Position numbers and translations under genes: made by a program. Below are positions 29,717 to 35,358 of a DNA stretch of 35,358 nt, one piece after another (the first letter of the stretch is position 1; each line of letters opens with the position of its first letter). The notes under the pieces were generated by a model that saw nothing but the letters and a program-made list of their open reading frames with translations, made no database searches and was not told the DNA's origin. Location of the stretch: the IMG/VR virus record IMGVR_UViG_3300002145_000080, positions 1 to 35,358 of that record. One strand, given 5' to 3'. The DNA is from a virus.

Positions 29717-30181
29717 ATGAAATCACCTCCTAGCGACTACCTAAAATTTTGGCGGGTCATCCGTTATTATATGAAAGCAAAACACGGATTAGGTCAAGCT
29801 GACTTAGATATTATCCTGTTCCTTTACTCAGAAAGCTACTTTGGGAAAAAAGACTTTGATAGATTTGCCGAACTTGTAAGTTGGGAAGTAAATAGATTTG
29901 TTAGACTACACCAAGAAGGGTGGATTGAAACGTTCAGAAAAGGGCGTGGACCTAGAAGCAGAGCCTTATACCAACTATCATTCAAGGCTACCCGTGTCGT
30001 ACTCGACATCTATAGAAAACTAAATGGGGATGAAATCCCCACTAGCTTATCATCTAACCCTATGTTTTTAAAAAATGTCTCCTACAACGATAAAGTCTAT
30101 CGCAATATGATTTTGGAAATGAATAAGTACCAAAAAGCAAAAAGGATAATAGCACGAACAGCTACAAAAGATGATGATTAA
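29717..30181 (+). CDS. Winged-helix-like putative regulator (154 aa)
   Basis: This gene has plus-strand orientation within a minus-strand region. The product has 'YLKFWRVIRYYMKAKHGLGQ' (8-27), 'ADLDIILFLYSESYFGKKDF' (28-47), 'LVSWEVNRFVRLHQEGWIET' and then 'FRKGRG.....LYQLSFKATRVV', the order of helices and a beta wing of MarR-like winged-helix DNA-binding proteins. The C-terminal 50 residues are helical and basic. I associate this pattern with small regulators in Bacteroidota phages. It diverges from the 67-aa gene and converges on groES with a 4-base overlap of stop regions, so it could antagonise or regulate either unit (inference). Confidence 0.6.
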   Translation: MKSPPSDYLKFWRVIRYYMKAKHGLGQADLDIILFLYSESYFGKKDFDRFAELVSWEVNRFVRLHQEGWIETFRKGRGPRSRALYQLSFKATRVVLDIYRKLNGDEIPTSLSSNPMFLKNVSYNDKVYRNMILEMNKYQKAKRIIARTATKDDD

Positions 30182-30676: not shown

Positions 30677-31189
30677 TCAATGATTATTTTCCATCTCCCA
30701 CCAAAAAGTTAAGTCCTCTGTGCTGTCGTTATAATACTCACCTACATAGTTTGAGTTATACACAGACCCTACATTCTCAAACATTGCCACAGTGTATATG
30801 TCAGTGATGCCCATATCTTTTAAATACTTATCTAAAAAAGTATAGTTGCCTCCTCTGATAATCCCGGCTTCAACTAATAATACCCTTTTGTTTTGTAGCT
30901 TATGCCCATAAATATCCATAATACTATGAAGTTCACCTAAGTATTTATCGTCCCAATGCTCGTCAGGATAGGGTACATCGACCCCGAATCCATCACAAAT
31001 CTCCCCATTTGAACTAAGTAAATGCCTTAAAGTCTGACCAATAATGGATGAGTAGTCTGTAGATACCGTTATGATAACTGTATTGTCAGCATTAAATCCA
31101 TCCCTGATTAACTCAGTAGCTATGTTGTCTATTAAAAACTGTTCGTCATTGAACGATACGTTTAATATTTTTTTATTGCTGTTGCTCAT
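30677..31189 (-). CDS. Phosphoribosyltransferase-like protein (170 aa)
   Basis: I choose ATG 31189 (MSNSNKKILNVSFNDEQFLI), which overlaps the groEL end by 17 bases; an earlier in-frame ATG at 31216 is less likely. A Rossmann-like beta-alpha order is suggested. Residues 102-116 (RVLLVEAGIIRGGNY) align with the PRPP-binding loop of type I phosphoribosyltransferases (VLLVDD.I.TG.T), and the C-terminus 'TEDLTFWWE' resembles the 'FPWE' end of phage members. The second acidic residue of the loop is Ala (Glu107-Ala108), so activity may be lost or changed. It lies between groEL and groES. It may act on nucleobases or be a non-catalytic binder. Confidence 0.5.
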   Translation of the reverse strand: MSNSNKKILNVSFNDEQFLIDNIATELIRDGFNADNTVIITVSTDYSSIIGQTLRHLLSSNGEICDGFGVDVPYPDEHWDDKYLGELHSIMDIYGHKLQNKRVLLVEAGIIRGGNYTFLDKYLKDMGITDIYTVAMFENVGSVYNSNYVGEYYNDSTEDLTFWWEMENNH

Positions 31190-32789
31190 ATGTACGTGCC
31201 ATTGTAATGATTGCATTAGTGCTAAGAATTGTTACCGCTACGCTGACAGCATTTTGTAACGCTGACCTTGTAACTTTCAATGGGTCAATAACACCCATCT
31301 CAATCAAGTCACCCATCTGACCGGTCTTAAGGTTGTATCCGTGCCCAACAGGAGTACCTTCTTTATAGACGTCACTTGGTTTAAGTCCTGCATTAGCCAA
31401 TATCTGTTGGAATGGTGACATCAATGCATTGCGGACAATACTTAATGCAGCATTGTACTCTAAACTTTTGGTCTCCTCACCTAACTCAGCACTCTCGTCA
31501 AGTAGTGCCTTACCCGCACCCGGCAGTATCCCTTCCTCAAGAGCAGACCTTACTGCACACACAGCGTCATCAACCCTGTCGTACAACTCTTTCTGCTCAA
31601 GGTCAGTCTGACCACCAACAAATATCACACCTATGCCACCCGTAAGTGATGCAATACGCTCCAACAAAAAGTCTTTGTCACCTTTCTTAGTCGCTTCCTT
31701 ATGTGCATCCCATAATTGCTTCACTCTCTCCTCAACCAACTTCTCGTCAGCTTTAGCTGTACTTCTGATAATAACAGTTTTGTCTTTACCAACAATAACT
31801 TTGCTTGCGTGCCCTAAGTCACCATAGTTAATATGGCTTAAGTCATCACCTGTCTTCTCACTATAGTAAGTAGCACCCACACTAATTGCAATGTCTTGCA
31901 TCAACTCGTGCTGCTTGTATCCAAAGTTTGGTGGAGGCACAGCCACCACTTTTAAGTTTCCTTTTACTGAGTTTGCTGCAAGTGTATTTACCACGTTAAC
32001 GTTGCACGGAGAAATAATCAACAGCTTCTTCCCTTCGGAAATGATTGGTTTCAACACATTCTCAATCTGTAAAATATTTGCTATCTCAATGTCACATACC
32101 AAAACCATAGTGTCTTCAAAGACACACTCATCTTTCTTTTGGTCGTTGATAAACATTGAACTCAAATACCCTCTGTCAAACTTTAACCCTTTAGTTGTCT
32201 CTGCATATGTCTCATTAGTCTGACTTCTCTCCACAGTTACAATACCTGTCTTACCAACTTCCTTATAAACCTCCGCAATAATGCGTCCTATCTCTCTGTC
32301 ATTGTTAGCTGACAATGCCGCCACATCCAATAACATTGCACTACTAACTTTCTTTGCCTTACGTCTTAACTTCTCCACCACCTTGTTACTTATGTCCACC
32401 ATATGTCTCAACACCTCCGTTCTGTTCATATCCTCTTTGATATGCTCAAGACCACCAAGTACCAATCCCTCTGTCAAAACAATAGCTGTTGTCGTTCCAT
32501 CACCCGCAGCGGTAGCTGTCTTGTCTGCCGCCTCCTTCATCATCTTAACCGCAAGGTTCTCTGATGGGTCAATAAGGTCAATTGACTTTGCAACTGTTAC
32601 ACCATCCTTAGTAACCGTGATGCCGTGTGTGTGATGTGGACTCTCAATGAGTACCGTGTTACCACTTGGTCCAAGAGTTGACTTAACAGCCTTTGACATC
32701 TTGATGACACCACTGATAAGTTTCTTCCTTCCTTCACTTCCGAACTGCAAATCCTTGGGCGAGTACCCAATTCCTGATGTTTCTACCAT
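31173..32789 (-). CDS. groEL: GroEL-type chaperonin (538 aa)
   Basis: This is a full-length group I chaperonin. I choose ATG 32789 (MVETSGIGYSPKDLQFGSEG), which has the AATCAAATG leader and a promoter box 27 bases upstream; the longer frame from 32819 would run through that region. The ATP site is complete: TLGPSGNTV (38-46), TKDGVTVAKS (60-69), GDGTTT (96-101), and the Asp of 'RVDDAVCAVRSALEEGILPG' that matches E. coli Asp398. 'LTGGIGVIFVGG' and 'GDLIEMGVIDPLKV' are also typical. The C-terminus is QQQ rather than the GGM repeats of E. coli. It probably folds phage virion or replication proteins. A copy of the 16-bp inverted repeat lies inside the gene at 32110-32125. Confidence 0.95.
   Translation of the reverse strand: MVETSGIGYSPKDLQFGSEGRKKLISGVIKMSKAVKSTLGPSGNTVLIESPHHTHGITVTKDGVTVAKSIDLIDPSENLAVKMMKEAADKTATAAGDGTTTAIVLTEGLVLGGLEHIKEDMNRTEVLRHMVDISNKVVEKLRRKAKKVSSAMLLDVAALSANNDREIGRIIAEVYKEVGKTGIVTVERSQTNETYAETTKGLKFDRGYLSSMFINDQKKDECVFEDTMVLVCDIEIANILQIENVLKPIISEGKKLLIISPCNVNVVNTLAANSVKGNLKVVAVPPPNFGYKQHELMQDIAISVGATYYSEKTGDDLSHINYGDLGHASKVIVGKDKTVIIRSTAKADEKLVEERVKQLWDAHKEATKKGDKDFLLERIASLTGGIGVIFVGGQTDLEQKELYDRVDDAVCAVRSALEEGILPGAGKALLDESAELGEETKSLEYNAALSIVRNALMSPFQQILANAGLKPSDVYKEGTPVGHGYNLKTGQMGDLIEMGVIDPLKVTRSALQNAVSVAVTILSTNAIITMARTYEQQQ
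32110..32125. repeat. 16-bp inverted repeat copy inside groEL
   Basis: The plus strand reads GTGTCTTCAAAGACAC, the reverse complement of the copies at 10225, 17292 and 33961. It lies within coding sequence (codons for VFEDT in groEL). Confidence 0.85.
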
Positions 32790-32816
32790 TTGATTGTAAT
32801 TTAATTTAACGATGTA

Positions 32817-32824
32817 CAAATATA
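32817..32824 (-). promoter_or_regulatory. Bacteroidota-type -7 promoter box for the chaperonin operon
   Basis: The minus strand reads TATATTTG, 27 bases before groEL ATG 32789. The leader ends AATCAAATG as at other operon heads. No -33 element is clear. Confidence 0.6.
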
Positions 32825-32916
32825 GTCAACCTATGGTATATTATCCACTATTTTAGAGATTTTTTTATTAACCAAGGATATAATTACCCGTTAGGGTGTG
32901 ATGGATATTCTATGTT

Positions 32917-33237
32917 ATGTCGGTATCTATGTCGGTTTTTAACACAGAAATGTCGATTTATGACGATATTATGTCGGTTTAAAAAAAAACGACATTGACT
33001 TAAGTTAATTAGTACCAATGAGTTATGGTGTATTTATACACCTTATGTCAGAAATGCGGAAAATTTTCCTATACTTCTCTCTATATATTACTACTCTTTC
33101 TTATTATTTTTATTATTCTATAATCTCTTTAAAATCGACATTTTCGACATTAAAAGAATAAAGTATTAATAATCAATAAGTTAAAAAAATAAAATCGACA
33201 TAAAATCGACATAAAAACTATACCAAAATGTCGATAT
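32917..33237. repeat. Iteron array, consensus ATGTCGRTTT
   Basis: Plus-orientation copies start at 32917, 32929, 32950, 32960 (degenerate ATGACGATAT), 32971 and 33228. Minus-orientation copies are at 32986-32995, 33132-33141, 33141-33150 (weaker), 33192-33201 and 33203-33212. In the first cluster the spacings are 12, 21, 10 and 11 bases, close to whole DNA helix turns. The orientation switches across the A+T-rich tract. Confidence 0.8.
33027..33042. repeat. 7-2-7 inverted repeat in candidate origin
   Basis: GGTGTAT and ATACACC flank TT. It is a perfect pair of seven-base arms between the first iteron cluster and the A+T-rich tract, suitable as an operator for a dimer or a small hairpin. Confidence 0.6.
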
Positions 33238-33245
33238 TGACATTT

Positions 33246-33283
33246 ATACAACAGAAAGAGTCATAAGTAATATTCTGTTGTAT
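33246..33283. repeat. Inverted repeat with 11-base arms
   Basis: ATACAACAGAA (33246-33256) and TTCTGTTGTAT (33273-33283) are perfect reverse complements with 16 bases between them. It lies just after the last iteron and has no T-run that would make it a terminator. Confidence 0.65.
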
Positions 33284-33295
33284 GCATTTATAGGC

Positions 33296-33328
33296 AAAAA
33301 GAAACCCAACACGCTAATGTCGGGTCTC
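33296..33328 (-). terminator. Rho-independent terminator after the 85-aa gene
   Basis: On the minus strand GAGACCCGACA pairs with TGTTGGGTTTC (two wobble pairs) around a six-base loop, then five T follow. It lies about 70 bases after the stop of the 33398-33655 gene and would isolate that gene from the candidate origin and groEL. Confidence 0.7.
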
Positions 33329-33338
33329 AAAAAGTAGG

Positions 33339-33380
33339 ATATTACACAATCAAATTCTTTAGATGTTACTTGTGTAATAT
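33339..33380. repeat. Second inverted repeat with 11-base arms
   Basis: ATATTACACAA (33339-33349) and TTGTGTAATAT (33370-33380) are perfect reverse complements 20 bases apart. It lies between the stop of the 85-aa gene and its terminator. Confidence 0.6.
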
Positions 33381-33397
33381 TGAACTTTTAAAATAAT

Positions 33398-33655
33398 TTA
33401 GCCCATCTCAGGACCTTTCATCATCTCAGAACGGATGTTGCCTAAGAACACAGCCTCAGCCATCATCTGAACCTTCTCCATTTTCTTAACAACCTTCTTT
33501 GCAGTAGCAGCTTGTTGGATTCCGGTTTGACCATCAGGGCGATTGTTAATTAACATACCCTTGTTTACAGTCAACCCAAAATTTGCACCACTCTGCTGAT
33601 ACACACTGTTCGACAAGTCTTTCTTGTAAACAGAATTTCCAAGTTTTAGTTTCAT
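33398..33655 (-). CDS. Small basic protein of unknown function (85 aa)
   Basis: The 85-aa product starts MKLKLGNSVYKKDLSNSVYQ, has 'LTVNKGMLINNRPDGQTGIQ' in the middle and a Met/Lys-rich helical C-terminus ('KKVVKKMEKVQMMAEAVFLG'). There is no recognised domain, signal or membrane segment. It stands alone between the candidate origin and the divergent control region, with its own terminator (33296-33328) and an A/T-rich leader containing a 12-base palindrome (TGAAATATTTCA, 33674-33685). A role near replication is possible by position only. Confidence 0.55.
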   Translation of the reverse strand: MKLKLGNSVYKKDLSNSVYQQSGANFGLTVNKGMLINNRPDGQTGIQQAATAKKVVKKMEKVQMMAEAVFLGNIRSEMMKGPEMG

Positions 33656-33845
33656 AATAATTTTTTTTGAAGTTTGAAATATTTCATAGTAAAGATAGGA
33701 AATTTATTAGATGGTTTTAGTGTTTGGGCTATATAACGGTTTTACAAAACGAAACGCAAACCGAAAGCGACTTTTTTTTTAGGGGGTGGGGGTCTGCTTT
33801 CAAAATTCCCGTCCGATATTTTTGGCGTTTTGCTGTGGCAGTACA

Positions 33846-33882
33846 GCAGTACATTGCCTGAGGTATTCAGGCAATGTACTGC
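33846..33882. repeat. Long perfect hairpin (16-bp stem)
   Basis: GCAGTACATTGCCTGA and TCAGGCAATGTACTGC are perfect 16-base arms around GGTAT. A second GGCAGTAC just upstream (33838-33845) could pair with the same right arm, giving a register-shifted alternative. No T-run follows on either strand, so a terminator is unlikely. Confidence 0.8.
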
Positions 33883-33956
33883 CACATAGTACGCCACTAA
33901 TCAGCCACATTGTGACAGCCTGATGCAATCCGATACACTCGCACGACATCCACAAA

Positions 33957-34178: not shown

Positions 34179-34814
34179 ATGAGTCAATTACTATCAATCG
34201 AAACGGCTTTCCTAAGCCTCCCACAAGTCAAGCAGGGCTTGAACTTGAGCGAAATTAGGAGCGTGCAAAGGACTATCACCAATGCAAAAAAGAAAAAGTT
34301 TGAGCAAACGCTTGCACTTAGTAAGTTAGTTACTCAAGCGGTTGATTGGTTTCAATCACCGGAGGGGCAAAGAGTTTGCAACGATGAGGGAATCAGTTGG
34401 AGCAATGAGGAGATTGGGCAAAAGGTTTTCGGATGGCAAAAAAGTTTTTTCTACAAAGTAGTGAAAGCAGGTCGACTTGAGTCGACTATCATTGAGAACT
34501 TTAATGCCAAATGTAACGAGGTTGAGGCTCAAGGTGAGGAGCCGAATAGAAGCCTTGAGGGTTTATTAAAATTTGCTAAGCAAGTTGAAGCCGGTGGAGG
34601 TAATGAAAGCGAAGGTGGAGAGGGCGAAGGCGAAAGTGAAAGTGAGCCACAAGTTGAGACACGTGTTGAAACTATTTTAACTTTCACGTACAAAAGCGAA
34701 GGCGGTAATGTTTCAGTAAGAATCGATGCGAACGGCTTAGTGAAAACCACAAATAGCGATGAGCAAATAAGAGAGGCTATCGCTGTATTGAATTTCAGTT
34801 TACAAAATAGATAA
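34179..34814 (+). CDS. Putative DNA-binding protein with acidic linker (211 aa)
   Basis: The N-terminal 130 residues are helical and basic in part (SVQRTITNAKKKKFEQTLAL, 28-47), with a helix-turn-helix-like segment 'WSNEEIGQKVFGWQKSFFYK' (74-93) that resembles the DUF3102-like helical region of some phage and plasmid proteins. A Gly/Glu/Ser linker (about 138-157) leads to a small beta domain (TILTFTYKSEGGNVSVRIDA...). The gene is first in the plus-strand module next to the candidate origin, so a replication, partition or regulatory role is possible. The leader is A/T-rich (AAATTTAAACAAAATG). The C-terminal domain and function are not recognised. Codon use is richer in G+C than the structural genes. 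Confidence 0.6.
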   Translation: MSQLLSIETAFLSLPQVKQGLNLSEIRSVQRTITNAKKKKFEQTLALSKLVTQAVDWFQSPEGQRVCNDEGISWSNEEIGQKVFGWQKSFFYKVVKAGRLESTIIENFNAKCNEVEAQGEEPNRSLEGLLKFAKQVEAGGGNESEGGEGEGESESEPQVETRVETILTFTYKSEGGNVSVRIDANGLVKTTNSDEQIREAIAVLNFSLQNR

Positions 34815-34833: not shown

Positions 34834-35358
34834 ATGAACGGAATCATTTATTCAACAACAGGAGAAAGTCGCAGGGGTCAAGTGGCAAGTTACCACTCTA
34901 AGCCTTCGCCACTGTTTCTAAACAAAAGCAAACACGCTGTAGACATTGCAGGGCTTAAGCCGGCTCAACAGCGTAGTGCAATCAAGTTTGAGAGCGGTGA
35001 GTATGAATCGAAATTCACTATCGGGTTTGAGGTCGAGAAAAACCAATTATCACGAAATGCGGTGAGAGAGTATGAATTATTTTGTGGGTTTGAGCGTGAT
35101 GGGTCGTGCGGGTACGAAGCCGTTACCCACGTGCTCCCTTTGTTACCTGCAGGTGGATGGCGTACAAAGGTTTACGATATGATGCACAAGGCTGAAAAGA
35201 TTATCGATGATAGATTTAGCCCTTCTGATAGGAGATGCGGTGGTCATATCACCATAGCGTGTGAGGGGATGAGTGGTGACGCCTTGAGGGATGCCATCCG
35301 TAAAAATTGCGGTATTGTCCTTGCTTTATTTAAAAAGCGTGTAACTAACAGCTATTGT
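34834..35358 (+). CDS. Amidoligase-like enzyme (COOH-NH2 ligase), C-terminus cut by window edge
   Basis: The frame opens at ATG 34834, 19 bases after the preceding stop, and remains open to the last base (175 residues). Motifs in order are 'FTIGFEVEKN' (61-70), 'GFERDGSCGYEAVTHVLPLL' (85-104) followed by GGW (107-109), 'RRCGGHITIA' (133-142) and 'KKRVTNSYC' (157-165). They match the Amidoligase_2-type pattern 'G.E.E', 'DGS...E.V(S/T)', 'G.H(V/I).I' and 'R..N.YC', a glutamine-synthetase-related fold that joins carboxyl and amino groups. Phage members are thought to modify proteins, peptides or cell-wall components. The first 60 residues are not recognised. The C-terminal part is missing from the window. 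Confidence 0.65.
   Translation, partial: MNGIIYSTTGESRRGQVASYHSKPSPLFLNKSKHAVDIAGLKPAQQRSAIKFESGEYESKFTIGFEVEKNQLSRNAVREYELFCGFERDGSCGYEAVTHVLPLLPAGGWRTKVYDMMHKAEKIIDDRFSPSDRRCGGHITIACEGMSGDALRDAIRKNCGIVLALFKKRVTNSYC

Follow-up and report, generated by a model that had tools for sequence, protein, structure and literature searches.

The window, meaning the whole stretch of 35,358 b analysed here, is a fragment of a tailed phage that carries genes for terminase, portal protein and GroEL/GroES. The groEL gene lies on the minus strand (31173-32819, with a probable ATG start at 32789) and was used as the anchor for locating the neighbouring repeat-rich element, designated element A, in relatives. 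The sequence TATATTTG (32817-32824, minus strand) is the Bacteroidota-type -7 element (TAnnTTTG) of groEL; it is more than 90 b away from the nearest repeat of element A. On the far side of the element there is a gene for an 85-aa protein (33398-33655, minus strand), for which a search for a family match gave none, with its intrinsic terminator (33301-33328, minus strand), a 12-pair stem followed by a T run. Farther on, a 211-aa protein is encoded on the plus strand (34179-34814); it was weighed as a possible binder of the element. The divergent intergenic region ahead of this gene contains a near-perfect long hairpin (TGGCAGTACAGCAGTACATTGCCTGA-GGTA-TTCAGGCAATGTACTGCCA, approximately 33830-33885), for which Rfam returned only spurious miRNA matches. 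An RNA element was considered and rejected, as Rfam matches were all below threshold.

The repeats of element A share the core ATGTCG. This hexamer is present 13 times in the window, and 11 of these copies fall within 32917-33322, compared with a density of about 0.06 per kb elsewhere; the only copies outside the array are at 30004 and 33944. Within the array, the cores are located on the plus strand at 32917, 32929, 32950, 32971, 33228 and 33317 and on the minus strand at 32990, 33136, 33145, 33196 and 33207, the copy at 33317 being part of the terminator stem. The extended motif ATGTCGRTTT has six exact matches in the window, all inside 32929-33212, and 12 matches if one mismatch is allowed, a number not reached in any of 100 dinucleotide shuffles (expectation 4.5 ± 2.1). 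The array of about ten copies reported in the first-pass annotation is therefore real, and its description stands. The spacings of 12, 21, 10 and 11 b given there are reproduced when the degenerate copy ATGACGATAT near 32960 is counted, but the exact cores are 12, 21 and 21 b apart on the left and 9, 51 and 11 b apart on the right. The orientation of the repeats does reverse overall across an A+T-rich tract, except for one minus-strand copy (32990) and one plus-strand copy (33228). The inverted repeats mentioned in the same annotation were found at 33019-33050, 33246-33283 and 33330-33389.

The core of element A extends from approximately 33041 to 33213, and additional boxes reach back to 32917. 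Its left edge is a weak pair of plus-strand boxes (ATGTCAGAAATGCGG, 33041-33059) that was recognized in alignments and is clearer in a second copy of the element found in relatives (TGACGAAAATGTC; see below). It is followed by a pyrimidine-rich A+T tract without G on the plus strand (33060-33136), a candidate DNA unwinding element (DUE), which is the longest G-free tract of the window and measures 77 b rather than the 76 b noted earlier. Then come a minus-strand box pair with a distance of 9 b (AATCGACATTTTCGACAT, 33133-33150), a perfect match to the IHF consensus WATCARNNNNTTR (AATCAATAAGTTA, 33171-33183, plus strand), and a second minus-strand pair with a distance of 11 b (ATCGACATAAAATCGACATA, 33193-33213). 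Beyond the core, a plus-strand box is followed by an inverted degenerate copy (ATGTCGATATTGACATTT, 33228-33245). The boxes on the groEL side (32917-32995) are less conserved than the core element. The tract together with the spacer forms the least stable duplex of the window, for 80-b as well as for 160-b stretches. In five relatives, the corresponding stability ranks were 1-9 for element A and mostly 1-11 for the second copy, the exception being that of G017 (rank 50 in the 80-b window). Element A thus combines multiple direct repeats limited to one or two loci with an adjacent A+T-rich region of low stability, as iteron-type theta origins do.

We compared the DNA upstream of groEL in 80 relatives. 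Nearly all of those with enough upstream DNA carried the ATGTCG core in this region, with densities reaching about 19 per kb, compared with mostly 0-0.6 per kb in the rest of their DNA, and a spacing skeleton of 11, 51 and 9 b recurred in many of them. Near-complete relatives of about 63 kb (the completeness of these records is not certified) contain a second cluster, designated B, about 10 kb from A across the plus-strand module. When a weight matrix trained on the boxes of the window alone was scored in 250-b windows of five near-complete relatives, A and B were the top two windows in all five, and the other windows scored about as shuffled sequence did. The motif, for which the first-pass annotation had proposed a search in the genome and in relatives, is consequently limited to two places per genome instead of being evenly spread, and its position is shared by relatives in which the replication genes are retained.

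Element B is located just after a terminator, and only about 9 bp separate its end from the start codon of the gene for an 807-aa primase-helicase (BT4734-like_N, DUF5906), so that copy B lies directly before a replication gene while copy A adjoins groEL. According to the alignments, A and B are homologous, as judged from the same order of weak plus-strand boxes, A+T tract, minus-strand pair with 9 b, conserved spacer and minus-strand pair with 11 b; the spacer is usually 10 b longer in A than in B, which corresponds to about one helical turn. In one genome, the boxes of both A and B had drifted to one common variant (CTGTTA), and such parallel drift suggests co-evolution of the two elements with one binding protein. 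In the records 3300020045_000790 (L034/L332) and 3300017788_000072 (L045/L322), the boxes of the two elements had diverged from ATGTCG and shifted towards CTGTTA/ATGTTG. Element A decays in the most distant relatives whereas B persists, and A may for this reason be the secondary of the two. The early module of the window phage runs off the fragment, and this phage probably has a copy B as well, to judge from its relatives.

The IHF consensus WATCARNNNNTTR has been published (PMC10380432, PMC5742627), and in the E. coli oriC IHF binds between DnaA boxes adjoining the DUE (PMC10380432, PMC5742627). In the phages, 39 of 48 non-redundant B elements had the exact consensus at a constant position, where shuffled spacers would give 0.26; 40 of 51 A elements had it as well, at +10 or +20, and the offsets in A and B differ by 10 b. 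The match in the window, AATCAATAAGTTA, is the sole one of its intergenic region. A conserved IHF site between protein-binding sites is what an IHF-assisted nucleoprotein complex would have, with binding here being predicted only. Since no phage-encoded IHF or HU was found in the relatives, a host protein would be needed. This absence counts against the proposed origin, as does the uncertain specificity of IHF in the presumed Bacteroidota hosts.

The box itself, AAATCGACA, is similar to the DnaA box TTWTNCACA without conforming to it. The statement of the first-pass annotation that the repeat is not obviously a known DnaA box is accurate as far as the canonical sequence is concerned, but the repeat is a near relative of that sequence. 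Canonical host DnaA boxes were rare and scattered in the five relatives, with no cluster at A or B. A candidate for the binding protein is encoded in all 20 near-complete relatives of the groEL family that were checked: a stand-alone protein of about 100 aa corresponding to domain IV of DnaA (DnaA-IV protein). Two genomes that were retrieved by motif only and have neither the small DnaA-IV protein nor the 211-aa protein (G019 and G020) were excluded from the family counts. In G001, the DnaA-IV gene is located about 2.2 kb upstream of the primase gene. The protein matches DnaA in sequence (E 4e-6), and its predicted structure (pLDDT 89) has DnaA domain IV as the sole credible match, with a TM of about 0.8 and an rmsd of 1.8 to the DnaA-DNA complexes 3pvp and 1j1v; sequence profile (Bac_DnaA_C) and fold are therefore in agreement. 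Full-length DnaA with an AAA+ domain was absent from the relatives, where PF08299 matches were confined to open frames of about 100-230 aa. As the DnaA-IV protein has no AAA+ domain, it cannot melt DNA in the way DnaA does, a point against the proposed origin. Many relatives have a second, longer DnaA domain IV protein (about 160-230 aa) that keeps a DH(S/T)T-like motif (loci L209:175-744, L236, L242, L243, L246, L247, L249-L252, L258 and L259).

In E. coli DnaA, helix 434-451 reads TnCACA, and Arg399 reads the A/T-containing 5' part of the box (PMC5742627). Compared with the DnaA box, the phage box keeps T and ACA, has one C replaced by G and is still A/T at its 5' end. Among the residues compared (R399, P423, D433, H434, T435 and H439), His434 and His439 have counterparts in nearly all of the phage proteins, T435 is mostly replaced by S, and D433 is variable. 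Covariation of residue 433 with the box was considered and rejected: the residue varies (K, Q, T, S, A) and the box does not follow. By its fold and co-occurrence with the elements, the DnaA-IV protein is the best candidate for the binder, and the window phage probably encodes it, as suggested by relatives that are up to 97% identical in GroEL; its presence is deduced from these since the window ends before the DnaA-IV gene. Our literature search found no paper on stand-alone DnaA domain IV proteins as phage initiators. Human-faecal 'phage' records matching the DnaA-IV protein were rejected as independent support, since full-length DnaA is encoded in them and they are evidently contigs from bacterial dnaA/oriC regions. 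Two of them have TTATCCACA clusters nearby, and the only use made of these records was to show that the cluster scan works. MT836067, MT837747, MT835860, MT836079, MT838222 and MT839331 (L380-L385), labelled 'Bacteriophage sp.', encode full-length DnaA of about 450 aa, some with canonical DnaA-box clusters, and are evidently fragments of bacterial chromosomes inside a phage collection.

Taken together, two sites per genome, a conserved anatomy, location in the least stable DNA and the DnaA-IV protein in 20 of 20 relatives favour an origin. Specifically, element A may belong to a pair of oriC-like origin elements to which the phage DnaA-IV protein binds together with IHF or HU of the host, a proposal that we judge to have about an even chance of being correct. 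The DnaA-IV protein would bind the altered DnaA boxes (AAATCGACA) pairwise, and host IHF or HU would introduce a bend where the IHF consensus separates one box pair from the other. This bend, together with cooperativity in binding, might then open the neighbouring 77-b A+T tract, where the phage primase-helicase encoded just downstream of copy B would be loaded to start theta replication, with A, rather than B alone, possibly active as an origin. Somewhat more tentatively, this phage family may have turned the motorless DNA-binding domain of DnaA into a stand-alone iteron initiator with an altered box that starts replication from twin oriC-like elements about 10 kb apart. The iteron-origin reading of the first-pass annotation survives in that the motif occurs in two conserved places, in the least stable DNA and around an IHF consensus, but the binder, the class of the box and the value of the GC-skew test had to be revised. 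In four of the five relatives, the skew minimum did fall close to A, at a distance of about 1 kb; however, the skew merely tracks gene orientation, and as its slopes are equal for minus-strand genes on either side, it marks only the change in gene direction and does not discriminate between the readings.

The main rival to an origin is a two-site operator, at which the DnaA-IV protein or another phage factor, together with IHF, would switch groEL and the late genes as well as the primase operon, the tract being a regulatory or promoter sequence. The positions of the elements are compatible with this: A lies upstream of groEL, the last box of B is just 9 b away from the start codon of the primase gene, and there is overlap between the boxes and sigma-70-like hexamers; moreover, DnaA also acts as a transcription factor. 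Nevertheless, a separate -7 element of the Bacteroidota type belongs to groEL, mostly at 10-50 b from its start and far from the boxes, TAnnTTTG was present in just two of 48 B elements (absent in 46), and there are only two sites per genome. The two copies have identical orientation. As the plus direction leads in A to a convergent gene (its 3' end) and the minus direction leads in B to a terminator, no single promoter role fits both. We regard the operator as less likely than an origin, although one complex may still regulate both operons.

The element could also be an origin with a different conserved phage protein as the binder of its boxes. The primase-helicase, which directly adjoins every B element examined, and the 211-aa protein at 34179, encoded by the first large plus-strand gene beside A, would be possible binders. 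The 211-aa protein, proposed for a binding test in the first-pass annotation, is nevertheless missing from four relatives that retain the elements (G009, G011, G013 and G014), and no credible fold match was obtained with its model, so it was rejected as an obligatory binder; the likeness of the box to the DnaA box in turn favours the DnaA-IV protein, which makes a different binder improbable. Paired repeats with an IHF site are also a feature of the lambda attP arms, and iteron arrays occur in centromeres, too. An attP intasome, built from arm-type sites plus IHF, or a parS partition centromere of a plasmid-like prophage, is nonetheless very improbable and largely refuted, as neither a tyrosine integrase (PF00589) nor ParB (ParB_N, PF02195) was encoded in any of the 20 relatives.

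If element A is an origin bound by the DnaA-IV protein, the system is a variant of the iteron/IHF/DUE type of origin. It resembles the E. coli oriC in having a DUE adjoining a box, an IHF consensus between boxes and more boxes beyond, in a box that reads as a variant DnaA box and in a candidate binder with the DnaA domain IV fold. The differences are a core GACA instead of CACA, a 5' end AA instead of TT, a protein without AAA+ domain and two copies per genome of about 63 kb. In addition, R1 of the E. coli oriC has the opposite orientation to the tract compared with the phage boxes, which counts against an origin. Iteron theta plasmids of the pSC101 and P1 oriR type have direct repeats at helical spacing, an A+T-rich region and an IHF-type site, and share with the phages a small non-ATPase DNA-binding protein as (candidate) initiator, but known Rep initiators are winged-helix proteins whereas the phage candidate is a DnaA domain IV. 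Phage SPP1 likewise has two homologous binding-site arrays in one genome, oriL and oriR, served by one initiator (G38P), which belongs to a different family; the SPP1 origins are not made of DnaA-like boxes. The Flavobacterium elemo phages (NC_055853) have a podovirus-size genome, groEL/groES and a related primase-helicase, but in them a 'replication initiation protein' is annotated before the primase; tblastn gave no close DnaA-IV relative, and no ATGTCG cluster was found within the 28 kb examined. The nearest annotated relative is Caudoviricetes sp. ctfjg026 (MW202828), in which ATGTCG clusters occupy both positions and groEL, a primase gene and genes for stand-alone DnaA domain IV proteins are present; it is a metagenomic record with automatic annotation only, and its GroEL is 59% identical.

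If our interpretation is true, these phages would be a natural, minimal case of box recognition, DNA bending and strand opening uncoupled from the DnaA AAA+ motor, and the need for this motor would become directly testable. They would also offer a DnaA domain IV whose box specificity has changed naturally, as well as a well-delimited candidate origin and a short pattern of sites with which origins could be located in a large environmental phage family, which comprises hundreds of contigs with a related groEL or primase.

Two further observations were made in these genomes. The 16-b palindrome GTGTCTT(YR)AAGACAC is present four times in the window (10225, 17292, 32110 and 33961) and 8-11 times per near-complete relative (G001, G002, G004, G007 and G017), spread genome-wide with groEL included. 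This is far above chance for a 16-mer, and the palindrome is possibly a regulator, packaging or modification site. The first plus-strand genes (window 34834-35358; L211:5624-6742) appear to encode an enzyme of the amidoligase type, for which there was no family match, and a protein with a gamma-glutamylcyclotransferase domain and a weak amidotransferase match. The early region may thus hold a peptide-modification module.
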